Assembly (NCBI GenBank): GCA_002698665.1
Contig: NZZP01000006.1
Span: 1 to 35,826, forward strand
Length of the DNA stretch: 35,826 nucleotides
Source: Gammaproteobacteria bacterium
GTDB taxonomy: Bacteria > Pseudomonadota > Gammaproteobacteria > GCA-002705445 > GCA-002716945
Direction of reading: 5' to 3'
In this document: positions 2,820 through 9,892 of the stretch, in pieces
Layout: each line of letters begins with the position of its first letter
Position numbering within the stretch: position 1 is the stretch's first letter
Notes under the pieces: generated by a model
Told to the model about the DNA's origin: nothing
What the model saw: the letters and a program-made list of their open reading frames with translations, nothing else
The model's database searches: none
Position numbers and translations under genes: made by a program

Positions 2820-4808
2820 TTAAGTCAAACTCATGTTTAAAACACCTTCCATTTTTTCTGCCATCTCTGACTTACCTGTTCTACTATCACCAATTGTGGC
2901 AATGGTAACATCAACTTCTTTGATGGAGTCGTCACCTAATAATTTACGTTTATGAACAGCGGTATTTTTTATAAGTTTAATCATATCGTGAGCTGCACGT
3001 TCCGGGCCATGATGCTCAACCAGTTCACGACTATCAAAACCACATTTTTCTAGTAACTCATCAGAACTTTCTTTATAAACACCAGCCATTAACATGCTAT
3101 GAGCTAAACCAATTTGCATTTTTCCTTCTTTCACACGACTTTTAAAGTTATTCCAAAACTTGGTTTCAATTTCTTCAAACTTTTCACACATATCAGCGTG
3201 TTCAGGTAGTACTTTCCAGTCTTTATCTTTTAAGAGAGGGAAAGGGTTAGCCCAATAACTAATTTCAACATCACCTCTATGTGTTTGTGTACTTCCAGCA
3301 GCAACCCTTGCGCCGCTTCTGAAGTGTTCTAAAGCATCATCAGGTGTCATATCTGTCTTCATGCAATCCTCACCTGGAGCCATCAGCTTATAGTTATTTA
3401 GATATAAAAGGATATCAAGTTCTGAGCCTGTAGAAATTTCAGAGTATTCCGTTACTGGTACAATCTGCCTGGCGTTAGTACCTGAGTGCTTGTTGTAACC
3501 TATCTCTCTGCCTTCCATTTGCATTTTGGCATGTTCACTAAAGCCATCTAAACAGCAAAATGCACCGGTTTCAGTACCATAGAAATAAGGCACATTATTT
3601 TCTAAAGTTGCTCTACCCATATCATCAGCTTTGATAAATGAATCAAATATGTATGGTTCATTAGTTTTTTCATCGAATCTAACAACATATCTTGTTGCAC
3701 CACAATGGAGAGGTAGATCGCCTTTTAATATGCAAAGCACATTATGTAGGGTCAACATAGGTTTTTTTCCATAACCAAAATATTGACATTCATCGAGACC
3801 TGGAATTAGTCCAACTAATATATCATTTTCTTTATCATGATAGTAACCAAGATCTTTCATATCAGAATTAGGACAGCCTAATACGAAAATTCCATCTGGT
3901 TGTTTTTTTGTAATATTATCAATTTTAGAGAAAGGAAATAAATTTAATAGACCAGGTTCAATTTCTATGTAACCCCGTGTTTTATGGATGTAGCATAATA
4001 TATTCCACGCTCCAATCTCAAAAGGTATAGCTACATATTCCTCTGGTTTAAATGAATCATTTTTAACTGGATTATGGTCTAATGCAAAAAAAGGAAAAGC
4101 TCGTTTGTTTGCATGAGTTGTGTAGTAAACACCTGTTCTCATATCAGCTGCAGTAGTAACTGGCACTTGATTTAAGTTTGAATAATCACCTGGTAAGTTT
4201 ACATAATGCCCAGAAATTTCTCCTACAGCAACATTAGGGTGACACTCCAAACCTTGGGTTCTTCTCACTCCTTCACCTAGACCAGCTCTTATCAATAGAA
4301 TCCTTCTGGTTTCAATTATTAATTCTGATAATTTGTCTGCTTTTGTAGATACTTTGTCTTTTATTTCTTCTGCATCTATTCCATTTTCTAGAATTTCATT
4401 ATGCAATCTGACAAGCCTAGTATAGGATTTAGTTCTATAGTGGTGAAATGCACCATCAATAAATTTCACAGAATCTCTGGCATCCCTTAATTCGTCTCCT
4501 GAAAGTGGAGTAGCAGCCTCTATTATAGATATATATGCTTCAGGCCCTATACTTTCTATGTATTCAATTTTATGAAGTACATCTTCTTTTAGATCAGTAT
4601 TTTCACGATTTTTAAGCTCTTTAATAAATTGCTTTTTATAAATATCTAGGTACTGCGCAAATGCTTTGCTTTTTAATAGTTGTACCGGGGTAGAACACCC
4701 ATCTCTTATTTCTAGAATTTCTTCCATATTTAATTCTCTCTTATTTGTTAATATTTTTAATATAGTATTATACCTATATCGTACAAAAGTGCTTTGACTT
4801 TTTTGCAA
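2820..4808 (-). CDS. Uncharacterised PEPCK-like protein with C-terminal P-loop; likely start is the ATG at 4727
   Basis: 662 aa ORF. LPLHCGAT recalls PEPCK 'MHCSAN'. TPDDALEHFRSGARVAAGSTQTHRGDVEISYWANPFPLL resembles PEPCK 'T..Q..YHFLSGYTAKVAGTE.G......F..CFG.PFL'. The C-terminal ATIGDSRTGKSEMAEKM is a Walker A resembling HprK GDSGxGKSE. The internal ATG at 4727 (MEEILEIRDG) has a GAGAG Shine-Dalgarno (plus-strand ctctc 4736-4740). Function unknown. Confidence 0.6.
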   Translation of the reverse strand: MQKSQSTFVRYRYNTILKILTNKRELNMEEILEIRDGCSTPVQLLKSKAFAQYLDIYKKQFIKELKNRENTDLKEDVLHKIEYIESIGPEAYISIIEAATPLSGDELRDARDSVKFIDGAFHHYRTKSYTRLVRLHNEILENGIDAEEIKDKVSTKADKLSELIIETRRILLIRAGLGEGVRRTQGLECHPNVAVGEISGHYVNLPGDYSNLNQVPVTTAADMRTGVYYTTHANKRAFPFFALDHNPVKNDSFKPEEYVAIPFEIGAWNILCYIHKTRGYIEIEPGLLNLFPFSKIDNITKKQPDGIFVLGCPNSDMKDLGYYHDKENDILVGLIPGLDECQYFGYGKKPMLTLHNVLCILKGDLPLHCGATRYVVRFDEKTNEPYIFDSFIKADDMGRATLENNVPYFYGTETGAFCCLDGFSEHAKMQMEGREIGYNKHSGTNARQIVPVTEYSEISTGSELDILLYLNNYKLMAPGEDCMKTDMTPDDALEHFRSGARVAAGSTQTHRGDVEISYWANPFPLLKDKDWKVLPEHADMCEKFEEIETKFWNNFKSRVKEGKMQIGLAHSMLMAGVYKESSDELLEKCGFDSRELVEHHGPERAAHDMIKLIKNTAVHKRKLLGDDSIKEVDVTIATIGDSRTGKSEMAEKMEGVLNMSLT

Positions 4809-4874: not shown

Positions 4875-6068
4875 ATGAAAAATTTGATAGAGCCCCATGG
4901 ATCAAGCACTCTAAACCCTTTATTTATTGAAGATATTCAAAAAAGAGAGCGAATTTTGCAAGACGCAGATAATATGAAAAAAGTACTAATTAATTCTGCA
5001 GCAGCTGCAAATGTAGTTATGTTAGGTGCTGGTTACTTCAACCCACTTGAGGGCTTTATGGGCAAAAATGATGCATTTTCTGTTGCAGAAAATCTAGTGA
5101 CCGAAAATGGGCTATTTTGGCCAATACCAATTATTAACCTTACTAAAATTGATGATAATTTTGCTGTTGGAGAAAAAATAGCACTTTTGGATCCCAATAT
5201 AGAGGGTAACCCTATTATTGCAGTCCAGGAAATATCTGAAATAACCAGTTTGAATGACGATGAATTACAATTGCTCACACACAAAATTTTTGGCACAACT
5301 GATACAGAACACCCGGGTGTTGCTAATTTTCTCAGTCTTGGAAATGTTATGTTGGCTGGAAATATCCAAGTATTGAATTATAGCTATTTTCCAGAAGATT
5401 TCCCCGGTACTTTCTATACTGCGCCAGAAATTAGAGATATGTTAGCAAAAGCTAACTGGGGTACTACGGTTGCGTTTCAAACAAGAAATCCAATGCATAG
5501 GGCTCATGAAGAATTATGCAAAATGGCATTAGAAAGAGTAGAAGCTGATGGTGTATTAATTCATATGACATTAGGTAAACTTAAAGATGGTGATATCCCC
5601 GGAGATATTAGAAACAAAGCAATAGAAAAAATGGTCGAATTATACTTCCCTGAAAATACCGTTATGATTACTGGTTTTGGTTTTGACATGCTTTATGCTG
5701 GACCGAGAGAAGCACTTCTACATGCGGTTTTTCGTCAAAATTGTGGATGTACTCACTTAATTGTCGGAAGAGACCATGCTGGTGTTGGAGATTACTATGG
5801 CCCATTTGAGGCACAAGAAAACTTTGACTTAGATATTGTCAAGAAATCTCTTAAGCTTAAGATTTTCTCGGCAGACCATACTGCATATTCTAAAAAACTC
5901 AATAAAGTTGTAATGATGCGAGATGTGAAAGATCATAATAAGGATGATTTTGTCCTTCTTTCAGGAACCAAAGTTAGAGAGATGTTATCAAATGGAGAAG
6001 AGTTACCAGAAGAATTTGCAAGAAAGGAAGTTGCAGAAATACTTATGAAATATTATCAATCCCTTTAG
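4875..6068 (+). CDS. sat: Sulfate adenylyltransferase (dissimilatory ATP sulfurylase)
   Basis: 397 aa with QTRNPMHRAHEEL, GRDHAGVGDYYGPFEAQ and SGTKVREML signatures; followed by apr genes. Confidence 0.97.
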   Translation: MKNLIEPHGSSTLNPLFIEDIQKRERILQDADNMKKVLINSAAAANVVMLGAGYFNPLEGFMGKNDAFSVAENLVTENGLFWPIPIINLTKIDDNFAVGEKIALLDPNIEGNPIIAVQEISEITSLNDDELQLLTHKIFGTTDTEHPGVANFLSLGNVMLAGNIQVLNYSYFPEDFPGTFYTAPEIRDMLAKANWGTTVAFQTRNPMHRAHEELCKMALERVEADGVLIHMTLGKLKDGDIPGDIRNKAIEKMVELYFPENTVMITGFGFDMLYAGPREALLHAVFRQNCGCTHLIVGRDHAGVGDYYGPFEAQENFDLDIVKKSLKLKIFSADHTAYSKKLNKVVMMRDVKDHNKDDFVLLSGTKVREMLSNGEELPEEFARKEVAEILMKYYQSL

Positions 6069-6101: not shown

Positions 6102-6173
6102 TAATTAAGTCGTTTTAAATACTATAAATATATACTATAATCATTCAAGCAGATATCAAAGAAAGGAGAGATT

Positions 6174-6323
6174 ATGTCTAAATACAATAAGAATATCACT
6201 GATTATGCAATTACTCACAGATGCAGACATTTTCATAAACTAGATATCATATCATTACCAACAATTAGAGAATCTGATAATAATCATAAGTCAATAAAAC
6301 GAATATCAGGTTTTAATAAATAG
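6174..6323 (+). CDS. Small ORF of 49 codons between sat and aprM, hypothetical protein
   Basis: ATG at 6174 preceded by AAAGGAGAG Shine-Dalgarno. Translation MSKYNKNITDYAITHRCRHFHKLDIISLPTIRESDNNHKSIKRISGFNK, stop TAG 6321-6323. The stop abuts the GGAG Shine-Dalgarno of aprM. Below the length cutoff of the supplied ORF track. Confidence 0.6.
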   Translation: MSKYNKNITDYAITHRCRHFHKLDIISLPTIRESDNNHKSIKRISGFNK

Positions 6324-6331
6324 GAGAAATT

Positions 6332-7111
6332 ATGCTAACCACCAATCCTTTTGTAGATAATGTTTTAAATGTTCCATTTGTAGCTCTTCAGATATTTTTA
6401 ATTTTAATGGTAGTACTTACAATAGGTGGTGTGGTACTTGATATGATTCATAAAAAGAATGTTAAGTTTTTCTTTGAGAATGCTAAAAAAGCAAAGCTAT
6501 CTGCGACTAAGTCTGTTCCTACAGGTAAAAAGGTTGCTATCATTGCCAAAACTTTAGCTCATGATGTCGCAACCTCCGCTGAATTCTGTGGTGTAACCAG
6601 AAGAGTCACACATTTACTGGGTATGTATGGAACGATTGCTTTCTGGGTTTCATCAGCTGTTCTAATATTTAGCAACCCAACGACATCTACATGGCCAATA
6701 ATCTGGCATGTAGGTGCATTAATGACATGTATAGGAGGATACTGGTTTTGGTTTATTCAAAGAGTAGATGTCAGATCAGAAGGATACAGTTGGACTAGAG
6801 TTGTTTTTGCTGATTTGTTTGTAATGTCACTAGTTTTAACATCTACATTCGGTTTACTTTGGTCTTACTTTCAGTCAACTAATTCATCAGTACTAGCAGT
6901 ATTATTTTTTATTTTGTTTGCATTATCAAATATTGTATTATTTGGTGGAGTGTATTGGTCTAAATTTGCTCATATGTTTTATAAACCAGGTGCTGCAATA
7001 CAGAAGCACCTAGCAAAAGCAGATGGTTCAAGAGATGATTTACCTGAACCTGCAGACTTGCCAAAACAGTATGGACTTGGTATAAAACGTCAAGAACCAC
7101 AGAATTATTAG
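6332..7111 (+). CDS. aprM: Adenylylsulfate reductase-associated membrane anchor protein AprM
   Basis: 259 aa protein with multiple hydrophobic segments (FVALQIFLILMVVLTIGGVVLD, IIWHVGALMTCIGGYWFWFI, VVFADLFVMSLVLTSTFGLLW), immediately upstream of aprBA. Confidence 0.88.
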   Translation: MLTTNPFVDNVLNVPFVALQIFLILMVVLTIGGVVLDMIHKKNVKFFFENAKKAKLSATKSVPTGKKVAIIAKTLAHDVATSAEFCGVTRRVTHLLGMYGTIAFWVSSAVLIFSNPTTSTWPIIWHVGALMTCIGGYWFWFIQRVDVRSEGYSWTRVVFADLFVMSLVLTSTFGLLWSYFQSTNSSVLAVLFFILFALSNIVLFGGVYWSKFAHMFYKPGAAIQKHLAKADGSRDDLPEPADLPKQYGLGIKRQEPQNY

Positions 7112-7150: not shown

Positions 7151-7642
7151 ATGTCAACTTTTGTATATATGACCAGATGCGATGGATGTGGACATTGCGT
7201 AGATATCTGTCCTTCAGATATCATGCATATCGATAAATTAATTAGGAGAGCGGTAAATATCGAACCTAATTTTTGCTGGGAATGTTATTCCTGTGTAAAA
7301 GCTTGCCCGCAAAATGCAATAGATGTGCGTGGCTATGCAGACTTTGCACCCATGGGTCACAAAGTTAGAGTTCTAAGAGAAGAAGAAAAAGGAGTAATTA
7401 GTTGGAAAATAAAATTTAGAAATGGTCATATGAAAAGTTTTGTATCTCCAATCACAACAAAACCATGGGGGAAGTACATTCCTCATCTAGCTGAGAAAAA
7501 TATTCCTACAAAAGCAGAACATGAGAACAATCAATTGTATGGTGAACCTAAATATCTCAAAACCGGAAAGGTTCCTGTATCTGAGACAGGATTACCAGTC
7601 ATGGAAAAAGTTGGTAAACTAAAACAAGGAGTGTACTACTAA
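7151..7642 (+). CDS. aprB: Adenylylsulfate reductase beta subunit (2x[4Fe-4S])
   Basis: CDGCGHCVDICPSDIMHID and CWECYSCVKACPQNAIDVRGYADFAPMGH are diagnostic of AprB. Confidence 0.97.
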   Translation: MSTFVYMTRCDGCGHCVDICPSDIMHIDKLIRRAVNIEPNFCWECYSCVKACPQNAIDVRGYADFAPMGHKVRVLREEEKGVISWKIKFRNGHMKSFVSPITTKPWGKYIPHLAEKNIPTKAEHENNQLYGEPKYLKTGKVPVSETGLPVMEKVGKLKQGVYY

Positions 7643-9510
7643 TGGCTAACTACAAAACACATTATGAAGATTGCGATATATTAATTGTCGGTGGCGGCAT
7701 GGCAGGAACAGGTGCAACTTTTGAGTCTAGATATTGGGGTCGAGACATGAAAATCATTTGCGCAGAAAAAGCTAATATCGATAGAAGCGGTGCAGTTGCT
7801 CAAGGTCTATACGCAATCAACTGTTATATGGGTATGCAATGGGATGAAAATCAACCTGAGGATCACGTTAGATATGCACGAAATGATTTAATGGGAATGG
7901 TTAGAGAAGACTTAGCTTATGATATGGCTCGTCATGTAGATTCTTGTGTACATATGTTTGAAGAGTGGGGATTGCCACTGATGCGTAACGAAAAAACTGG
8001 AAGATTTCAACGTGAAGGTAAATGGCAGATAATGATTCATGGTGAGAGTTATAAGCCAATCGTGGCTGAAGCTGCTAAAAAATCTGCTGATAAAATTTAT
8101 AACCGGGTCATGATTACACATCTCTTAATGGATGAAACGAATAGCAACAGAGTTGGTGGCGCTACTGGATTTAATATGAGAACGGGTGATCATTATGTAT
8201 TCCGTGCTAAAGCTGTGATTTGTGCTGCAGGTGGTGCATCTCATATATTTAAACCAAGAGCAGTTGGTGAAGGCATGGGCCGAACTTGGTATGCACCTTG
8301 GAGTAATGGTTCAGCATATGCACTTCCAATAGCAGTCGGTGCTAAGATGACACAGATGGAAAACCGCATTGTCCTAACAAGGTTTAAAGATGGTTATGGT
8401 CCTGTGGGAGCATATTTTCTTCATCTTAAAACATATACACAAAATGCAAATGGTGATAACTACGAAAAAACATGGTATGACCAAACAAAAGAGATGGTTG
8501 GTGAATATATAGATCACGTACCAACTCCAACATGTCTAAGAAACCATGCTTTCATTCAAGAGACAGCAGCAGGAAGAGGTCCTATTCATATGGTAACAAT
8601 GGAAGCTTTCCAGGACCCTCATTTAGAAGTTATAGGATGGGAGAATTTCTTAGGTATGACAGTTGGTCAAGCGGTCGTGTGGGCATCTCAAGACATAGAT
8701 CCTAAATACCAAAACCCAGAACTAACTACTTCCGAACCTTATGTTATGGGTTCACATGCTACATGCTCTGGTGCCTGGGTTAGTGGGCCAGAGGATATAT
8801 CTGGAGGTATACCTGAATATTTTTGGGGATACAATAGAATGATGACTGTAGATGGGTTATTTGCAGCTGGTGATGCAGCTGGTGGAACAGCTCATGCATT
8901 CTCATCCGGGTCTTTTACCGAAGGAAGATTGTGTGCAAAAGCAGCAGTGCAATACATAAATGATGGTAAAGCAAATGGTATTACAGTTACTGAGAAACAG
9001 TGTGAGAAATTTAAAGAAATAATATATAAACCTCTTGAAAATTACACTGTAGGTAGAAATGAGATTACTGCTGGAACTGTTTCTCCTAGTTATATATTAC
9101 CAATCCAAGGGCTTCAGAGACTCCAAAAAATTATGGATGATTATGTTGGTGGAATAGGTACTAATTACATGACAAATGGTAATGGTCTTAAAAGAGGACT
9201 CGAGTTGTTAGAAATTTTACAAGAAGATTTGGAAAATGTTGGAGCTGAAGACCTACATCAATTAATGCGTGCCTGGGAGTTAAAACATCGTGCGTTGGTT
9301 TCACAATGTGTGGCTGAACATACAATGTTCCGTGAAGAAACAAGATGGCCAGGATATTACTACAGAGGAGATTTCCTCAAGCTTGATGATGATAATTGGC
9401 ATTGTTTAACAGTTTCAAGACGTGATCCAACTACTGGTAAATTTACACTAGAGAAAGCACCTCTATACCATCTTATTGATGAAGAATCTGAAGGCGAAAA
9501 AAAAGCATAA
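7642..9510 (+). CDS. aprA: Adenylylsulfate reductase alpha subunit (flavoprotein)
   Basis: FAD-binding CDILIVGGGMAGTGAT, AEKANIDRSGAVAQGLYAINCY, ETAAGRGPIHM, SHATCSGAWVSGPED; overlaps aprB by one base. Confidence 0.98.
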   Translation: MANYKTHYEDCDILIVGGGMAGTGATFESRYWGRDMKIICAEKANIDRSGAVAQGLYAINCYMGMQWDENQPEDHVRYARNDLMGMVREDLAYDMARHVDSCVHMFEEWGLPLMRNEKTGRFQREGKWQIMIHGESYKPIVAEAAKKSADKIYNRVMITHLLMDETNSNRVGGATGFNMRTGDHYVFRAKAVICAAGGASHIFKPRAVGEGMGRTWYAPWSNGSAYALPIAVGAKMTQMENRIVLTRFKDGYGPVGAYFLHLKTYTQNANGDNYEKTWYDQTKEMVGEYIDHVPTPTCLRNHAFIQETAAGRGPIHMVTMEAFQDPHLEVIGWENFLGMTVGQAVVWASQDIDPKYQNPELTTSEPYVMGSHATCSGAWVSGPEDISGGIPEYFWGYNRMMTVDGLFAAGDAAGGTAHAFSSGSFTEGRLCAKAAVQYINDGKANGITVTEKQCEKFKEIIYKPLENYTVGRNEITAGTVSPSYILPIQGLQRLQKIMDDYVGGIGTNYMTNGNGLKRGLELLEILQEDLENVGAEDLHQLMRAWELKHRALVSQCVAEHTMFREETRWPGYYYRGDFLKLDDDNWHCLTVSRRDPTTGKFTLEKAPLYHLIDEESEGEKKA

Positions 9511-9541: not shown

Positions 9542-9892
9542 ATGAATCTTGTTGATATGTCAGATGACGAGATTATGGAAATTGCTAATCCAATATGGGA
9601 TAGTCTCGTGCAAGCATCAAATAAAAAAGATTATGGCGGGTTTACAAAACATTTTGCTAAAGATATGTTATTTGGTGCAAATGAAGTTGAAATAGGTAAA
9701 CAGTGGGCAAGCAATAAAATGCTGACCACATTATCTACCGATAGAGAATGTTTTGGGTGCCTTCGACGTAAAGATCATGTAACCGTTTTATTTAAACAAA
9801 CTAGTACTGAAATACCTGGAGAGTATCTAGGAAGATTGGTTTTGGGAATCGAAGATGATTCTGTAAAAGTTTTCGGCGCTACAATTTTTTAA
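9542..9892 (+). CDS. Small conserved-looking protein downstream of aprA, possibly NTF2/SnoaL-like fold
   Basis: 116 aa. Helical N-terminus (DEIMEIANPIWDSLVQASNKKDYGGFTKHFAKDML) followed by predicted strands (HVTVLFKQTSTEIPGEYLGRLVLGIEDDSVKVFGATIF), with a CFGC motif. Fold call is by pattern only. Confidence 0.6.
   Translation: MNLVDMSDDEIMEIANPIWDSLVQASNKKDYGGFTKHFAKDMLFGANEVEIGKQWASNKMLTTLSTDRECFGCLRRKDHVTVLFKQTSTEIPGEYLGRLVLGIEDDSVKVFGATIF

Follow-up and report, generated by a model that had tools for sequence, protein, structure and literature searches.

Our analysis of the window, that is, the whole stretch of 35,826 nucleotides of DNA under study, points to a small protein gene between sat and aprM that is confined to one genus. 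With a probability of roughly 0.6, we read it as a genuine genus-restricted small gene that would stand first in the aprMBA transcript and encode a trans-acting accessory or regulator of APS reductase. The parts of this reading differ in strength: that the ORF is a real gene co-expressed with aprMBA is highly probable from its conservation and position, and that its product acts on APS reductase is a tentative proposal with somewhat less than even odds. An earlier note, made from the letters alone, had described a 49-codon ORF with a strong Shine-Dalgarno (SD) sequence between sat and aprM, short enough to escape annotation. Its ATG, SD sequence and TAG are confirmed here, and the comparisons below support its view of a real coding small gene of the sat-aprMBA cluster.

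Results

Table 1. Coordinates of the small gene and its neighbours in the window
Feature	Position	Strand	Basis
Diverged upstream box AAGTCGTTTTAAA	6107..6119	+	4 mismatches to AATTNATTCCNAA; same spacing to TATAAT
TATAAT, probable -10 for small ORF and aprMBA	6136..6141	+	10/12 sigma-70 match in the window
sat, ATP sulfurylase, upstream neighbour	4875..6068	+	PF01747, TIGR00339
SD sequence of small ORF, AAAGGAGAG	6162..6170	+	GGAG-type SD in 7/7 orthologues
Small protein gene, 49 codons + TAG, MSKYNKNITDYAITHRCRHFHKLDIISLPTIRESDNNHKSIKRISGFNK	6174..6323	+	ATG at 6174, TAG at 6321-6323, 49 sense codons between; orthologues in 7/7 genus genomes, omega test
aprM ribosome-binding-site core GGAG	6323..6326	+	First base is last base of small-ORF TAG
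aprM, membrane protein of APS reductase operon, directly downstream	6332..7111	+	ATG at 6332; position before aprBA
aprB	7151..7642	+	TIGR02060 above cut-off
aprA	7642..9510	+	TIGR02061 above cut-off

Family models confirm sat, aprB and aprA, and aprM, which shows weak QmoC similarity below the cut-off, is named by position; its identity across the family is 61-84%. Two further proteins lie near the locus. Directly 3' of aprA, a 116-aa protein (9542-9892, + strand) is found at 48-84% identity in 21 of the 25 family genomes; it has no Pfam, NCBIfam or convincing PDB match and is likely a further unnamed member of the apr operon. Divergent from sat, a 662-aa protein (2820-4808, - strand) carries a P-loop-like GDSRTGKSE near its C-terminus; at E 0.001 it matches nothing in Pfam or NCBIfam, and in PDB it has only a weak match.

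The family sample comprised 25 genomes, which also make up the order-level set, and aprM was found in 23 of them. In the window's genus, all seven genomes have a sat-aprM gap of 263-283 nt that holds a collinear ORF of 48-50 codons, led by a GGAG-type SD sequence and starting at nucleotide 105 or 106 past the sat stop. Loss of the frame in relatives had been named in the earlier note as what would refute a gene, and the other six genomes of the genus all keep the frame. Elsewhere in the family, in five further genera, the gap measures 124-172 nt, and none of them showed an equivalent ORF beside aprM. By profile search, each genome of the genus has a single copy, and neither the rest of the family nor 369 genomes of the class yielded an orthologue. 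Two weak class matches (E 6.6e-4 and 0.004 per genome; 369 genomes), one interrupted by stops and the other within a 379-residue frame, were taken as chance, as were family matches at E 0.17-4.4. Nor was an orthologue seen ahead of aprM when 36 out of 80 loci from more distant gamma- and alphaproteobacteria were inspected, and searches of IMG/VR and of phage and plasmid records returned nothing, giving no sign of a mobile or phage origin. By these searches the small gene is genus-restricted. Because five genera run the same operon without it, the small protein is, judging from gene content, dispensable for APS reductase in general.

The seven orthologues show the marks of protein-coding sequence. 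Their proteins align over 50 columns, 10 of which are invariant (M1, K6, T9, T14, D24, S27, L28, P29, S40 and R43). A dN/dS check, which had been suggested beforehand, gave under a codon model on the sat+aprM tree an omega of 0.198 in the right frame, with omega = 1 rejected (2dlnL 54.7); the exact value is rough because between most species the synonymous sites have come close to saturation, which leaves the direction and the frame specificity unaffected. The constraint is modest, since this omega is about five times that of sat (0.040) and aprM (0.044). In forward frames +1 and +2, omega exceeds 1 and there are 28 and 51 stops; the three reverse frames contain 6-48 stops. Variation is highest at third codon positions (0.446, vs 0.325 and 0.295 at the others), and indels inside the ORF are multiples of three, which those in the ORF-aprM spacer are not. 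When neutral evolution was simulated on the species tree, all seven frames stayed intact in 0 of 2000 runs. Among dinucleotide shuffles of the 263-nt gap, 1.1% contained an ORF of 49 or more codons, and 0.14% contained one of such length led by an SD sequence. In the closest pair of genomes, G014 and G012 (loci L005 and L006), the small ORF has 6 non-synonymous changes and 0 synonymous ones, and sat has 6 and 21, respectively; the pattern in the small ORF may reflect episodic adaptive change or relaxation.

The copy in the window is the most divergent of the seven. Its branch has an omega of 0.48, vs 0.15 elsewhere (2dlnL 17.6), and this value is only marginally below 1 (2dlnL 4.55); by this measure the small gene is evolving faster in the window species. 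The copy has lost a KITEGPIKS-like motif common to its relatives, and both its shifted C-terminus and its shortened spacer to aprM set it apart. The clues stressed in the earlier note, namely a single Cys, the His-rich THRCRHFHK and a TAG running into the GGAG of aprM, turn out to be peculiar to the window rather than conserved in the genus. A Cys occurs in two of the seven orthologues (the window and G013), three of the four His of the window peptide are its own, with His-richness found only there, and the one-base overlap of TAG and aprM SD sequence, correctly noticed in the window, is unique to this species within the genus. The description of a basic peptide (pI 10.0, charge about +6) containing a single Cys and four His thus stands for the window copy, and conservation of these residues does not. 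A Cys/His metal-binding peptide was ruled out on the same grounds. Positive charge and length, in contrast, are constant: the seven proteins have pI 10.0-10.8, charge +3.6 to +7.6 and hydrophilic GRAVY values of -0.34 to -0.93, with no sign of a membrane span. Searches of Pfam, NCBIfam, PHROGs and PDB gave no convincing family match (best Pfam value 0.0092, in one of seven members; best PDB value 0.025, to designed proteins), and AlphaFold2 models from the seven sequences had low, uninformative confidence (pLDDT 58.7 and 55.8). The small protein is probably soluble, basic and little-structured, with 48-50 residues.

A promoter-like element precedes the small gene. A TATAAT stands at the matching place in the gap at all 23 family loci, in every genus, and in most genera it is accompanied at fixed spacing by the box AATTNATTCC. 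The exact box AATTNATTCCNAA lies 5' of TATAAT with N16 spacing at 17 of the 23 aprM-bearing loci, and at several of the other loci, reading shows it with a single mismatch. Each genome has the pattern once, against a control count of 0; near an extra box match in G011, no ORF of at least 60 codons starts within 400 nt. The AATTNATTCCNAA-N16-TATAAT arrangement can be read at loci L117-L134, and its counterpart at 6107-6141 in the window is degenerate. From box and TATAAT together we infer a dedicated aprMBA promoter, and the element is possibly the binding site of a regulator. The box/-10 spacing is alike across six genera, with the small gene lying between these elements and aprM, and the distance from the -10 to aprM is 52-112 nt in the other genera vs 190-212 nt in the window's genus, an excess of about the length of the small gene. 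Given the TATAAT in the gap of every genus and the spaced box in most, the small gene probably comes first in the aprMBA transcript of this genus. In Allochromatium vinosum, sat is described as lying immediately upstream of aprMBA and co-transcribed with it (PMC3779200), so here, too, transcripts reading through from sat may contribute. In genus g2 (L015-L018 and L020-L024), a short ACCCTAT/ATAGGGT-like inverted repeat was seen by eye right after sat; it may be a weak terminator that sets sat apart from aprMBA.

Discussion

The best-supported reading of these results is a trans-acting small protein that would be made together with AprMBA. AprM has been postulated as the membrane anchor of APS reductase (PMC3779200). 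Translated in step with AprM, AprB and AprA, the small protein would serve the membrane-bound enzyme as a trans-acting accessory or regulator, and its conserved D-x-I/F-S-L-P and S-x-K/E-R segments would be the likely binding surface. That the peptide might serve the sulfur-oxidation cluster in an accessory or regulatory way, as the earlier note suggested, remains plausible. The proposed role in Apr is read from operon position only, and the absence of the gene from five genera with the same operon weakens it. We further speculate that a genus-specific protein family binds and tunes AprMBA and was gained between an ancient conserved promoter and aprM, possibly de novo, a fuller scenario that is unlikely to hold in all its parts; the gene may have arisen de novo or by insertion.

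The strongest rival, which we consider rather unlikely, is that the small protein is real, has a function unrelated to sulfur oxidation and is carried at this place because the aprMBA promoter suits it. Bacteria commonly have intergenic small proteins that are lineage-specific and evolve under purifying selection (PMC11188072), and Apr in the other genera needs no such protein, but the place at the head of aprMBA has been kept in all seven species without a second copy or relocation, which speaks against this rival.

A cis-acting leader peptide, whose translation would tune aprM through coupling, reinitiation or attenuation while the peptide itself had little function, is less probable again. 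It would fit an ORF that follows the promoter within the 5' leader of aprM and ends 8-25 nt from the aprM start. However, this geometry is variable, with the distance being 8 nt in the window and 18-25 nt in relatives. The earlier note had proposed that translation could be coupled; because relatives combine the longer spacer with a complete aprM SD sequence of their own, obligatory coupling is not indicated. Neither does the RNA behave as such a leader predicts. The fold of the window is not significant (z = -0.08), the consensus fold reaches only -4.9 kcal/mol with a positive covariation term, there is no Rfam match, no terminator-like site was found, and the aprM SD sequence, with an unpaired probability of 0.20-0.74, is not consistently sequestered. 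An RNA element or attenuator was rejected on these grounds. The small ORF also has no regulatory codon run, and amino-acid constraint extends along the length of the protein, which again argues against such a leader.

A chance ORF without function in AT-rich intergenic DNA is hardly credible, for although the protein belongs to no database family and the window copy is divergent with a shifted C-terminus, the rarity of SD-led equivalents in shuffles, the neutral simulation and a frame intact in seven species with an omega of 0.20 contradict it at the genus level.

Many sulfur oxidizers rely on APS reductase as a central enzyme of sulfite oxidation, and here a protein that is probably produced in step with the enzyme is absent from every family library searched. 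Short, fast-evolving operon genes of this kind drop under annotation cut-offs. The locus also offers a clean lineage-specific gene gain in a streamlined genome: as the promoter and flanking genes are constant and can be compared with and without the small gene, both its origin and its effect are testable. If the fuller scenario of a family that binds and tunes AprMBA is true, a central sulfur-oxidation enzyme of marine bacteria has acquired a lineage-specific added regulator or subunit.

Comparison with known systems places the small gene more closely. In attenuated operons, a translated leader peptide is encoded by a short ORF between the promoter and the first structural gene. The small ORF likewise lies between a putative promoter and the first structural gene; unlike those leaders, it has neither a terminator/antiterminator pair nor a run of regulatory codons, and its residues are conserved over the whole length. 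The gene order sat-aprM-aprB-aprA is that of Allochromatium vinosum, from which the present locus differs by the small gene and the apparent separate promoter between sat and aprM. The nearest parallel is the 'cryptic microproteome' of Enterobacteriaceae, in which families of intergenic small ORFs are under purifying selection (PMC11188072). As there, the small gene falls within 15-70 codons, is intergenic and lineage-restricted, has a dN/dS below 1 and encodes a minimally structured product with no known domain. On this comparative evidence it is a new example of an already known class, the lineage-specific intergenic small proteins. It differs from that set in coming from marine sulfur oxidizers with small genomes, in being strongly basic and hydrophilic where the others are mainly hydrophobic, and in holding its place at the front of a single metabolic operon in all seven species of the genus examined.
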